Shown piece by piece: positions 4,409 to 40,464 of a stretch of DNA of 40,464 nucleotides. The stretch's first letter is position 1. Every line of letters begins with the position of its first letter. The translations under genes were made by a program, and so were the position numbers. Below the pieces are notes generated by a model. The model was not told the origin of the DNA. It ran no database searches and saw only the letters and a program-made list of their open reading frames with translations. Source of the stretch: Bacillota bacterium (GTDB lineage Bacteria; Bacillota; Sulfobacillia; JAJYWN01); contig JAJYWN010000031.1 in NCBI GenBank assembly GCA_021791495.1, positions 1 to 40,464 on the forward strand. The letters are read 5' to 3'.

Positions 4409-5869
4409 TCATCTGAACCCGTGCCGGCGCGCTACTTCCAGAAGGCTGGAGATGCTGACCCCAAGGTCACGGGCCATTTCACCCAAGTCGTCCCCCATCG
4501 TGTCCAGCGCCCGGCGGACCAAGGCCGACTCGACGGCGGACAGATCGTCTCCCGCCTCGCCACCACGTGCCTGGGAAGACCCGGCCGCGGCAAGGACTTC
4601 CGGCGGAAGTCCAGTCACTCTTACCACCTCGCCGGTAGCCAGAATACAGGCCTTGCGGATGACCCCTTTCAGTTCGCGGACATTACCCGGCCAATCGTAA
4701 GCTCCCAGCGCTTCCACGAACTCTGGCGACAGGACCTTCCCCCGATAGGCATCGCCGAACTCCTTCATGACGGCCTCCGCCAAGAGCGGGATGTCCTCCT
4801 TGCGCTGGCGTAACGGCGGCAGAACCAGGACGATATCGTTCAACCGGTAGTAGAGGTCCGCTCTGAACCTACCCTCGTTCATCCGCGCGGCCAGGTCCTG
4901 GTTGGTGGCCGCCACCAGGCGCACGTCCACGCGGATGGTGCGCGTCCCGCCCACCCGTTCGAACTCCCGCTCCTGAATGGCCCGCAGGACCTTGGCTTGT
5001 GTGGCCAGGCTCATGTCGCCGATCTCATCGAGGAAAAGGGTGCCGCCGTGGGCCAGTTCGAACCGGCCGGGACGTTTGGCATCGGCGCCGGTGAAGGCAC
5101 CCTTCTCGTGGCCGAAAAGCTCGTCCTCCAAGAGAGTCTCCGGCAGTGAAGCGCAGTTGACCTTGATGAAGGGGCCGTCTTTCTTCAGGCTGTTGTAGTG
5201 GATAGCGGCGGCCGCCAGTTCCTTGCCAGTCCCTGTCTCGCCCAGGATCAGCACCGAGGCGTCGGTCGGCGCCGCCCTCTGGATCAGCTCATAGACCGCC
5301 TGCATGGCCGGGCTGGCCCCGGTCAACCCGCCGAAGGCGCTGAGGTTACGACGCTCCTGTTCCTCACGGAACAGCCGGTTTTCGGCCTCCAGGGCTTCCG
5401 TGCGCTCCTGGAGCCGGAGGAACCGCACGGCGTTGCCCACGGCGATGGCCAGCTTGCTCCTAGCCTCCTGCTTGTCCACGAAGTCGAAGGCGCCCAGCCG
5501 GATGGCTTCCACGGCGTGCCGCAAGTCGGCTTTGTCCGAGGCGATAACAACCGGCAGGTCGGGGTGACGCTGCCGCAGGTCTTCGAGAACCTTCAACCCA
5601 CCCCAAGGGTCGGGAGGCATTTTCAGATCGAGTACCACCGCGTCGGGTTGCCGGCCGGCGGCCGCGGCCAGCCCTTCCCCTGCCCCCGCGGCGGTGCGTA
5701 CGGCGAAGCCGGCTTCTATCAGCCAGGCCGAGAACAGCTCTCGGGCGCTTTCCTCGTCATCAATGATGAGGACGGCACCACGCGCGGTCTCCCCTTGCGC
5801 TGAGCCTGCCCGTGCCCCTTCGCCCTGGCCCGCCCCTCCTGGTCCTTCTCCGTCAGCCGCCCGAATCAT
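4409..5869 (-). CDS. NtrC-family sigma-54-dependent response regulator
   Basis: A 486-residue transcription activator with three domains. The receiver (about 32-150) has the acidic pair D37/D38, phospho-acceptor D81 (VVLDLKMP), S111 and K133. The AAA+ domain (about 180-410) has Walker A GETGTGK (209-215), the GAFTGA loop (256-261) that contacts sigma-54, and Walker B GGTLFLDEIGD (274-284). A Fis-type helix-turn-helix ends the protein (about 445-485). The full GAFTGA motif means it needs an rpoN product elsewhere in the genome. The first 30 residues are a Gly/Ala/Glu-rich lead; ATG at 5869 is the only start in this frame, and its Shine-Dalgarno sequence is weak. The cognate kinase is downstream behind a sigma-54 promoter, so the regulator probably controls its own partner. 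Confidence 0.93.
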   Translation of the reverse strand: MIRAADGEGPGGAGQGEGARAGSAQGETARGAVLIIDDEESARELFSAWLIEAGFAVRTAAGAGEGLAAAAGRQPDAVVLDLKMPPDPWGGLKVLEDLRQRHPDLPVVIASDKADLRHAVEAIRLGAFDFVDKQEARSKLAIAVGNAVRFLRLQERTEALEAENRLFREEQERRNLSAFGGLTGASPAMQAVYELIQRAAPTDASVLILGETGTGKELAAAAIHYNSLKKDGPFIKVNCASLPETLLEDELFGHEKGAFTGADAKRPGRFELAHGGTLFLDEIGDMSLATQAKVLRAIQEREFERVGGTRTIRVDVRLVAATNQDLAARMNEGRFRADLYYRLNDIVLVLPPLRQRKEDIPLLAEAVMKEFGDAYRGKVLSPEFVEALGAYDWPGNVRELKGVIRKACILATGEVVRVTGLPPEVLAAAGSSQARGGEAGDDLSAVESALVRRALDTMGDDLGEMARDLGVSISSLLEVARRHGFR

Positions 5870-5891
5870 GTGCGGTCCACCCCCGCCTGAT

Positions 5892-6298
5892 TATGGTGGG
5901 GGCCGCTCCCTCCGCCGCCCGAACGCTCCGCCGGGCTTAGCCCGGCTGCGCTGGCGGCTGCGGGACCCCGGCCCCCACACCCTCTCCGGCCTTTCGACAC
6001 CGCCCACCGGCGCCCCTCCTTATCGTGAGGGCCGCTCCCTCCGCCGCCCGAACGCTCCGCCGGGCAAAGCCCGGCTCCGCTGCCGGCTGCGGGGCCCCGG
6101 CCCCCACACCTGAACTTGGTGGTGGCCGCACCCTTCGCCGCCCGAACGCTCCGCCGGGCTCAGCCCGGCTCCGCTGGCGGCTGCGGGACCCCGGCCCCCA
6201 CACCTGAACTTGGTGGTGGCCGCACCCTTCGCCGCCCGAACGCTCCGCCAGGCGAAGCCTGGCTACGCTGGTGGCTACGGGGCCCCGGCCCCCACACC
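5892..6298 (+). repeat. Tandem array of four ~90-bp palindromic elements
   Basis: This array fills almost the whole 456-bp gap between dacF and the response regulator gene. Copies lie at 5892-5981, about 6017-6110, 6111-6204 and 6205-6298; the last two are an exact 94-bp tandem period. Each copy folds on itself. In copy 1 the outer arms GTGGGGGCCG (5896-5905) and CGGCCCCCAC (5969-5978) pair perfectly, a middle stem pairs GCCGCC with GGCGGC, and the apical stem GCCGGGC/GCCCGGC (5930-5936/5940-5946) closes a 3-nt loop. The loop varies (TTA, AAA, TCA, GAA). In copy 4 the apical stem is GCCAGGC/GCCTGGC, a compensatory change. The period is not a multiple of three and no plausible protein is encoded. 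No promoter for the downstream regulator gene is apparent inside the array. Confidence 0.9.
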
Positions 6299-6325
6299 CC
6301 CTCGTGACACTGGGTGACACTGGAC

Positions 6326-7705
6326 CTAACGGTGCCCGAACAGGGCCTCGAAGATGCGGAGGACGAAGGGACGCAGTGGACGGGGCGCCGGGGAGACCAA
6401 GGGGAACGCTTTCAAGAGAGTGGTGTCGCCCCCGTCTTCACCGATGCTGGCTTCGACCCATCCCACCAGTTCACCCTTGGCTAAAGGAGCTTCCAAGCCC
6501 GGCGCGGCGACGGCGCGCCACCGTACCCGCCCGACATCCTCCTTCCGGGTCAGGACAGCCGCCTGCGTGCCGAGCACAGCCTCCACGGGGTCACCGTAGG
6601 TGACACGGAAAACCGCGGCCGGGTCTCCCAGGCCGCCGTAGCTGGAAACTCCATAGGTGGCGAAACCGTAGTCCAGCAAGGCCACGGCATCACGGTAGCG
6701 GTCGTCGGAATGGAGGACCACGGCGATTAACTCGGTGTCCCCGCGCTTGGCCGACGAAACCAGGCACTTGCCGGCGGCGCTGGTGGTGCCCGTCTTGACT
6801 CCCGAAGCCCCAGGGTAGTAGCTGAGCAGGCGGTTGGTATTATAGAAGACCACCGGTCCCGTGTCGTCGTCGGGTAGGTCGTGGGTCACCTGGGCGCTGC
6901 CCACGATCTCGGCGAACTGCCAGTTGGCCAGAGCGTGCGCCGCCAGCCGCGCCAGGTCGTAGGCGGAGGTATAGTGGTTTGTCGCAGTGTGGCCATGGGG
7001 GTTCACATAATGCGTGTCCTTCAGCCCCAGTGCTTCAGCCCGCTGGTTCATCCAGTCCGCGAAAGCCGCCTGGCTCCCGGCCAGGTAGATAGCGGCGGCG
7101 AGAGCTCCGTCGTTGGCCGATTTCATGAGGATACCGTAGAGGATCTCCGCCAGCAGGTGTTTGGAACCCACCCTGAGGTTCATCATGGACCCGAAGGTCT
7201 GGACCATTTCGCGGGTGATGGTAACTTCCTCGGACAGGTCGCCGCGCTCCAGGACCAGCAGCGCCGTCATGATCTTCGTCGTACTGGCCCCAGGTCGGCG
7301 CACGTGTGAGTTCTTCTCGTACAAGATAGTGCCGGTGCGGGCCTCGACCAGAATGGCGGCGTCGGCCGACACGCGTGGCAGCGGCTTGCTGGAGGCGACT
7401 CCAGGGTCCACCGGGAGGAAGGGGCGGGTGAGGGAACCTCCCAGGACTGGGGTCGGCCCAGACTCCGCGGGGTCATCCTCGGGCTCACTGATCACCGACT
7501 GGACCTGCAAGGCTGCGGCTTCGGCGACAGCTCCGCTCAAGGTGGCGCGGTCCCATCCGGTGCCTCCACTGGAAGAGGCCAGCAGAATGGCCGCCAAGGC
7601 CAAAGCCGCGGGACCGACCCACCACGGTCTATGCCGGCGTACCCTCCCGCCGCAGCCGATGTTCAGGCACCTCTGGACAATGCGGACCACGCCATGGTCT
7701 CCCAT
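6326..7705 (-). CDS. dacF: D-alanyl-D-alanine carboxypeptidase (DacF/PBP5 type)
   Basis: A serine peptidase of family S11 that trims the terminal D-Ala from peptidoglycan stem peptides outside the membrane. The three penicillin-binding motifs are present, numbered from the ATG at 7705: STTK (S141-K144), SAN (196-198) and KTG (304-306). An N-terminal hydrophobic segment (about 29-44) acts as signal or anchor, followed by a 60-residue linker. The C-terminal part (about 370-460) matches the PBP5-associated beta domain. A longer open frame reaches 7765, but that start lies inside the terminator of the upstream gene, so it is rejected. ATG at 7705 is used here; GTG at 7690, with GGGAG 8 nt upstream, is at least as likely. 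DacF or DacB naming is by similarity only. Confidence 0.88.
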   Translation of the reverse strand: MGDHGVVRIVQRCLNIGCGGRVRRHRPWWVGPAALALAAILLASSSGGTGWDRATLSGAVAEAAALQVQSVISEPEDDPAESGPTPVLGGSLTRPFLPVDPGVASSKPLPRVSADAAILVEARTGTILYEKNSHVRRPGASTTKIMTALLVLERGDLSEEVTITREMVQTFGSMMNLRVGSKHLLAEILYGILMKSANDGALAAAIYLAGSQAAFADWMNQRAEALGLKDTHYVNPHGHTATNHYTSAYDLARLAAHALANWQFAEIVGSAQVTHDLPDDDTGPVVFYNTNRLLSYYPGASGVKTGTTSAAGKCLVSSAKRGDTELIAVVLHSDDRYRDAVALLDYGFATYGVSSYGGLGDPAAVFRVTYGDPVEAVLGTQAAVLTRKEDVGRVRWRAVAAPGLEAPLAKGELVGWVEASIGEDGGDTTLLKAFPLVSPAPRPLRPFVLRIFEALFGHR

Positions 7706-7724
7706 CGTTGCCCGCGAATATGGG

Positions 7725-7763
7725 CAAAAAAGAATAAGGCCGGGGGGGCAATCACCCCCGGCC
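7725..7763 (-). terminator. Rho-independent terminator after rodZ
   Basis: On the minus strand GGCCGGGGG pairs with CCCCCGGCC (arms 7755-7763 and 7738-7746, 8-nt loop), followed by TTATTCTTTTTT. It ends the rodZ transcript and rules out the longest reading of dacF. Confidence 0.9.
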
Positions 7764-7807
7764 ATTATTATGCTGTCGCTTGGTGACGCAAAAACCTACC
7801 CCGAAAG

Positions 7808-23444: not shown

Positions 23445-23571
23445 GCCGGGGTGGAGATACTAGGTGAGCGCCGCAGAAGCGGTCTCTGAGGGTCAATGCC
23501 CTGTGTCAGAGCTTCTCAAAACATGAATGGTCGGAAAAGCGGATGTATAGGGCTGGGTGGCAGGAGAGGGG

Positions 23572-23660
23572 CATGGGGGCCGGGGTTCTGCAGCCGCCAG
23601 CGCGGCCAGGCTTCGCCTGGCGGAGCATTAGAGGCGGCGAAGAGCGCGGCCCCCACCATA
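23572..23660 (-). repeat. Palindromic element, inverted dispersed copy
   Basis: This is the same element as in the 5.9-6.3 kb array but in the opposite orientation. The conserved ends TTATGGTGGGGGCCG and CCCCGGCCCCCA are present, with the apical stem GCCAGGC-GAA-GCCTGGC, which carries the compensatory A-T pair also seen in array copy 4. It is the most diverged copy (CTCTAATG replaces CCGAACG, and it is one base longer there). It begins 8 bp after the dapA stop codon, between dapA and the rnj promoter. Confidence 0.87.
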
Positions 23661-23667
23661 ATGAACA

Positions 23668-29771: not shown

Positions 29772-29832
29772 CGCAGCACCTCAAGAATGCGCGGAGGCTG
29801 CCGAAGCCACGGCCTCAAACCATCCCTTGAGC

Positions 29833-30008
29833 GAAGTAGCTCTCCACCGGGACCCAAGGGTGATGCCCCGGTGACAGTCCGTCACCTGTTAGGCGCCGGA
29901 CCAGCTCTCGTGGCCTTAGCAACCACGCGCTTCGGCGGTGTCCCCTTTCCGGCCGTTCTTCGATGCCCTTCTCCAGGCCGTACTCTTGGATCACCGCGCC
30001 TCTACCCC
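29833..30008 (-). ncRNA. Lysine riboswitch (L-box) aptamer
   Basis: Read on the minus strand, the RNA has the conserved L-box blocks in order: GAGGCGCGG, CCAAGAGTACGG, GAAAGGGG, CGCCGAAG, GAGAGCTGGT, GGACTGTCACC and GGTGGAGAGCTA. P1 can form between GGGGTAG (30002-30008) and CTACTTC (29833-29839), two of its seven pairs being G-U. The length (176 nt) agrees with the family. A terminator follows and dapB is the first gene, so lysine binding should stop transcription of the operon. Confidence 0.93.
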
Positions 30009-30106
30009 ACTCCACGGAGGAATGAGGCATCGTGCTCTATGCCTTTTAAACCGCTATTTTCTGGCTTGGCCCCGGCTTTAGGCCCTCCGCGCTGTCTACC
30101 AGGCTG

Positions 30107-40342: not shown

Positions 40343-40356
40343 AATCCGTCCCTCTT

Positions 40357-40446
40357 TATGGTGGGGGCCGCTCCCTCCGCCGCCCGAACGCTCCGCCGGG
40401 CGAAGCCCGGCTCCTCTGGCGGCTGCGGGACCCCGGCCCCCACACC
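40357..40446 (+). repeat. Palindromic element, single copy before rbfA
   Basis: Nearly identical to array copy 1 (5892-5981) and in the same orientation, with outer arms GTGGGGGCCG/CGGCCCCCAC, apical stem GCCGGGC/GCCCGGC and loop GAA. Immediately before the window end the bases CCTTATCGT (40456-40464) repeat the lead-in to array copy 2 (6018-6026), so another copy may begin at the edge. Confidence 0.9.
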
Positions 40447-40464
40447 CCCTTCGAACCTTATCGT

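Follow-up and report, generated by a model that had tools for sequence, protein, structure and literature searches.

Which kind of sequence occupies the gap between a dacF-type carboxypeptidase gene and a regulator gene in this Bacillota genome, and how did it come to be there? Within the window (the whole 40,464-nucleotide stretch of DNA that was analyzed), the original prediction placed four tandem self-folding copies in this gap. We confirm these copies at 5889-6303, where they fill most of the gap, and we find that all six copies proposed for the window are real: the four clustered ones and two at further sites. Most probably they belong to a lineage-specific, non-autonomous mobile palindromic repeat, of the MITE/REP class broadly defined, whose behavior resembles that of the Rickettsia palindromic elements (RPE). 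We infer movement from the dispersal of the repeat and from its lineage-specific inserts.

Copies in the window and across the genome

The clustered units are 94-98 bp long, are spaced at 129/94/94 and share 84-90% identity with copy 1 (Table 1), while ~30 bp of non-repeat DNA separate copies 1 and 2. Read in mRNA sense, the unit is 5'-(A)AGGGGGTGTGGGGGCC ... apical stem-loop ... GGCCCCCACCAAGTT-3', spans ~95 bp and has a G+C content of 72-79%. In this orientation (the - strand), copy 1 ends ~25 nt upstream of the ATG of the regulator gene, and copy 5 is oriented oppositely relative to transcription. The array with which the window's contig (C25) terminates, upstream of rbfA, resembles the start of contig C17, beside infB; the two contigs probably adjoin. 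Elsewhere in the window, a full-length lysine riboswitch aptamer was detected (29829-30012, - strand, 93.5 bits). For the LysRS encoded in the window, the best matches come from Bacillota, with Thermaerobacter and Symbiobacterium MAGs among the top three.

Table 1. Repeat copies in the window and the genes that border the cluster
Feature	Position	Strand	Remarks
Copy 1, first of the cluster of four	5889..5986	+	In mRNA sense, ends ~25 nt before the regulator's ATG
Copy 2	6018..6115	+	Outer stem most degenerate among the cluster's four
Copy 3	6112..6209	+	In tandem with copies 2 and 4, 94-bp period
Copy 4	6206..6303	+	Compensatory apical stem GCCAGGC/GCCTGGC; G-U in middle stem
Copy 5	23565..23663	-	Between dapA gene and RNase J gene
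Copy 6	40354..40451	+	Upstream of rbfA-like gene; contig end in tandem array
Response regulator / sigma-54 activator gene, downstream of cluster	4409..5869	-	Start at 5869
dacF-type D-alanyl-D-alanine carboxypeptidase gene (Peptidase_S11), upstream of cluster	6326..7765	-	Stop at 6326

The genome is a 4.2 Mb draft in 81 contigs, and genome-wide statistics were built on individually fetched loci. A BLAST search with one unit gave 55 matches, and a covariance model made from 45 distinct copies gave 48 full-length matches. One copy was counted twice, since the same flank occurs at the end of C41 and the start of C31, which leaves ~47 full-length copies. Together with partial ones, these occupy ~31 loci after merging. 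So many distinct full-length copies across the genome exclude chance. Each locus holds 1 to 4 units arranged head-to-tail. Copies at one locus often share a stem variant and are often near-identical; thus, local duplication adds to dispersal.

Some further features of the distribution were noted. Three of the longest contigs, C50 (237 kb), C62 (213 kb), and C6 (150 kb), carry no copy, where ~4-5 loci would be expected from the mean density. In most partial copies (C44:94962, C54:111980, C54:127436, C59:21397, and C35:97900), the 5' part as read in the transcript is missing and the 3' end beside the downstream gene is retained (5/6, p 0.22, numbers too small). An extra AAGCGGCCCCCACC-type 3' arm follows the unit at C28:101550, C35:46131, C35:97886, C54:112038, C59:31004, and C75:57986. 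We dropped a reading of these short AAGCGGCCCCCACC remnants as 5'-truncated insertions; because the same junction is common to all six sites, a subfamily whose 3' arm has been duplicated is the better interpretation.

Base pairing in the hairpin

Each of the four clustered copies folds into a long hairpin whichever strand is read (RNA z -2.4 to -5.8), copy 1 folds as DNA too, and folding beats dinucleotide shuffles on both strands. The original prediction correctly read the switch of the apical stem from GCCGGGC/GCCCGGC to GCCAGGC/GCCTGGC in copy 4, with both sides changed, and the G-U pairing of GCCGCC with GGTGGC in the middle stem of the same copy. Its 10-bp outer arm is perfect in copy 1 but carries a T-C mismatch in copies 3 and 4 and is also mismatched in copy 2.

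Across the alignment, both sides have changed at 10 of 27 pairs, giving 29 such cells versus 4.5 in shuffles, and the signal is lost when the pairing partner is slid. Since related copies inflate cell counts, we placed the changes on a tree. A home-made test, limited to the ten pairs in which both columns vary, counted 13 co-substitutions from one Watson-Crick pair to another on 10 pairs, where the tree-based null gave 1.4 +/- 1.1 and at most 8 in 2000. Covariation therefore exceeds phylogenetic noise, as had been anticipated. Paired bases are kept by compensatory change, which is a real base-pair constraint.

RNA selection was tested as strand-specific wobble via the one-sided changes and was unsupported: these produce 16 G-U pairs when the written strand is read but only 7 in the transcribed strand, where the other 16 are A-C. 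Thus, they do not single out the transcript as the selected form.

Insertion sites within and between genes

Two insertions lie within conserved protein genes. The aspS gene is a 706-codon open frame made up of AspRS and a ~62-residue insert matching two tandem units; TIGR00459 matches (2-360 and 363-584) flank exactly this two-copy element. The gpmI gene contains one in-frame unit between TIGR01307 matches at 2-238 and 240-504, and its insert exceeds the unit by ~ten residues. Each gene is the sole match to its model over the cut-off in the genome, and alignments of AspRS and GpmI to PDB sequences break at the element. Among 12 relatives, the aspS match is uninterrupted in all 12 and the gpmI match in 11, the twelfth being split between contigs. 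Alignment with relatives places the empty site of aspS, at codon level, between GAAGAT and GTCCGC, and it indicates that AAGTT belongs to the element as its end. In an AlphaFold model, the aspS insert is predicted to form a long loop joining two strands (pLDDT ~30); we use this local statement alone, because the model has a mean pLDDT of 72 and rests on a shallow alignment of ten rows. Three of the six reading frames of the consensus are free of stops, and at the 3' end the open frames of dnaE and infB read on into the units next to them. Thus, the elements are intergenic at most loci, as originally described, but lie in-frame within genes at these two.

Genes flanking the remaining loci include nusA/rnpM, prfB, tuf, clpC, glyQ, atpG, smc, rpsB/tsf, rplL, ruvB, ftsH, gpr, dapA, and that for RNase J, as well as rpsG (where the upstream gene reads like rpsL) and rpsE (with rpmD read by eye). 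Units lie between gene pairs of the rpsL-rpsG, atpA-atpG, rpsB-tsf, and infB-rbfA type. Essential genes are touched by 14/31 loci versus 3/20 control junctions (one-sided p 0.025), with essentiality taken as in B. subtilis, and translation genes by 10/31 versus 1/20 (p 0.020), both categories having been set after the neighbors were seen. The controls were round coordinates on longer contigs, 11/20 of them on three long copy-free contigs, which may be poorer in core genes; they were also scanned more strictly (E-value 1e-40, against 1e-8 or 1e-30 for the elements), which may hide small core genes. With a control this small and imperfect, a bias toward core and translation gene neighborhoods is only suggestive.

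Of the 28 loci that could be scored, 23 carry the repeat in a single orientation with respect to transcription (two-sided p 0.0009; hand tally), and the other five are antisense; gene-strand and replication-strand bias are inseparable on these contigs. Seventeen sense loci have a close downstream gene (at others, such as those of tuf and hutU, it lies further off), and in 16 of these 17 the start codon, measured by hand, is 17-28 nt past the hairpin foot, so that the unit abuts the Shine-Dalgarno sequence. The exception is atpG, with its start codon 5 nt past the foot. A terminator role, one of those originally proposed, is unlikely: no locus flank has the T-run of an intrinsic terminator after the hairpin in transcript sense, and units sit within gene pairs of the rpsL-rpsG, atpA-atpG, and rpsB-tsf type. 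The other proposed roles, mRNA stabilizer or protein-binding site, are possible as secondary effects.

Mobility, rival readings and known systems

The original prediction pointed to target-site duplications and a RAYT-type transposase as signs of movement, and neither was seen. No target-site duplication was found at 24 loci (mean match 2.33 versus 2.44 shuffled, with element ends uncertain by 2-3 nt) or at the aspS empty site. No RAYT gene was found among the Y1_Tnp matches that could be read; these are IS200/IS605 TnpA genes, and RAYT mobilization was rejected on this ground. One weak Y1_Tnp fragment, on C56, has a TnpB-like neighbor. The IS200/IS605 family typically has palindromic ends and makes no target-site duplication, properties shared by the repeat, but the left end of the elements in this genome (AGGTACCGGGGGAGCCC...) is unlike it. 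These elements, a TnpA followed by a TnpB-like frame, occur at C44:97581-98129 and on C51, C60, C61, and C73, with five left-end copies, several of them at contig ends. A search for a parent transposon with the pattern GGTGGGGGCCGCNCCCT returned the repeat copies and scattered weak matches, some of which were inspected. No mobilizing gene for the repeat was found in the genome.

How the repeat could spread can be outlined. An enzyme supplied in trans would copy or insert it in the form of a folded single strand, and a single-strand route through a Y1-type enzyme would fit both the absent duplication and the palindromic ends. Surviving copies would be those whose transcribed hairpin sits between an upstream stop and a downstream Shine-Dalgarno sequence, and those that, through a frame without stops, extend a protein by a flexible loop. 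The transcribed hairpin may shield or separate mRNA cistrons, which would be a by-product and not the reason for its existence.

It is improbable that the repeat is instead an intercistronic mRNA element of benefit to the host, such as an RNase III-type processing site, a 5' stabilizer, or a protein-binding site that tunes operon expression from 5' of the Shine-Dalgarno sequence. Strong folding, the 23:5 sense bias, and the 17-28 nt spacing to the start codon in 16/17 sense loci all fit such an element, as do neighbors such as rpsG, tsf, tuf, prfB, glyQ, atpG, clpC, smc, ftsH, and rnpM. However, five loci are antisense and two lie within coding sequence, units vary from 1 to 4 per locus, no copy was seen in relatives, and one-sided changes show no preference for G-U in sense (7 G-U versus 16 A-C); placement before the Shine-Dalgarno sequence may reflect tolerance of inserts alone. 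A different proposal concerns the covariation only and leaves room for a mobile repeat: the two-sided stem changes could be mainly mutational, produced by within-strand template switching that perfects palindromes. In its favor, pairing in the apical stem reaches 99.4% and one-sided intermediates are few. Pairing percentages are inflated, since the structure was derived from the consensus of the very alignment on which they were measured; the tree test is unaffected. Mismatches nevertheless persist, with T at column 12 opposite C89 in many copies and pair 22-76 unpaired in 19/45, which is unexpected if correction is frequent. These uncorrected mismatches favor selection on the fold, or a mixture of selection and template-switch correction, and template switching as the main cause seems rather unlikely to us.

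The remaining alternatives carry far less weight. A REP/BIME family proper, moved by RAYT, would be palindromic and mostly intergenic in a genome with Y1 transposases, as is the case here. We consider it very unlikely, given that the Y1 genes examined are of IS200/IS605 type with dissimilar left ends, that the consensus has no GTAG/CGTC tag, and that ~95-bp units run head-to-tail, as opposed to REP units of 20-40 bp that are often opposite (PMC3733652). Slighter still is the chance that the repeat spreads via its transcript, with RNA copies inserting into the mRNA strand of genes that are well expressed, to be copied back to DNA afterwards. If true, such a route would explain the sense bias, the nearness to translation genes, the absent target-site duplication, and the partial copies lacking 5' parts, but no reverse transcriptase domain (RVT_1) was found in the genome, and a reverse transcriptase acting in trans was rejected accordingly. 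An artefact of assembly or contamination has a negligible chance of accounting for the repeat: the genome is a draft with a contamination estimate of 4.24%, and several contigs end in the repeat, but copies lie on long contigs beside single-copy core genes, their sequences differ between loci, and contig breaks at repeats are expected.

We turn to the relation of the repeat to described families. No match to the repeat was found in 40 relatives (BLAST; none of the same genus or family), in 150 genomes of the class (covariance model, stricter filters), in GTDB r220 (one exact pattern; the collection may omit the source genome), or in phage, plasmid, and viral collections including IMG/VR. The repeat matches no Rfam covariance model; the original prediction, too, knew of no named family with this sequence. 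Its view of the repeat as a tiny, apparently non-autonomous mobile element is supported as regards dispersal, structural constraint, and imperfect terminal inverted repeats; the repeat is short, multi-copy, and without a transposase gene of its own, as MITEs are, but no target-site duplication was found.

Palindromic elements of Rickettsia were reportedly described by Ogata et al. in 2000. RPEs are ~100-150 bp long, form a long hairpin with terminal inverted repeats, and are dispersed both between genes and in-frame in conserved protein genes; their mobilizer is not established and target-site duplication is uncertain (PMC10969869, PMC2229807). The repeat shares the long hairpin, terminal inverted repeats, dispersal, and in-frame gene inserts, being slightly short at ~95 bp. 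It differs in phylum, in its G+C content, in its head-to-tail arrays, and in being mostly intercistronic and sense-oriented, with two clear intragenic loci only. We liken it to RPE by how it appears to behave, not by sequence, and claim no membership.

ERIC and the related RU-1, RU-2, and RU-3 are imperfect intergenic palindromes of ~100-170 bp, some of them in-frame in genes (PMC2759123, PMC2229807). They too are imperfect palindromes, but they are known from enterobacteria, and ERIC has a target-site duplication and 5'-TA ends (PMC2229807), whereas no such duplication was seen for the repeat. REPs carry an unpaired GTAG or CGTC tag, often form inverted dimers, and lie mostly between co-directional genes, with some within genes including those for tRNA synthetases (PMC3733652). 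The palindromic structure and this distribution are shared, but REPs keep close to the 3' end of the ORF that precedes them, while the repeat often abuts the downstream Shine-Dalgarno sequence. Palindromic repeats that code for protein segments are most familiar from Rickettsiales, and REP and ERIC copies within genes occur in other groups; a compact Bacillota family, inserted into the single-copy genes aspS and gpmI and also situated between core genes, offers another clear system in which to ask how structured repeats spread without disabling essential genes and how segments are added to proteins. The repeat is a new family within an established type of small mobile palindromic repeat, notable for its placement directly before the Shine-Dalgarno sequence.
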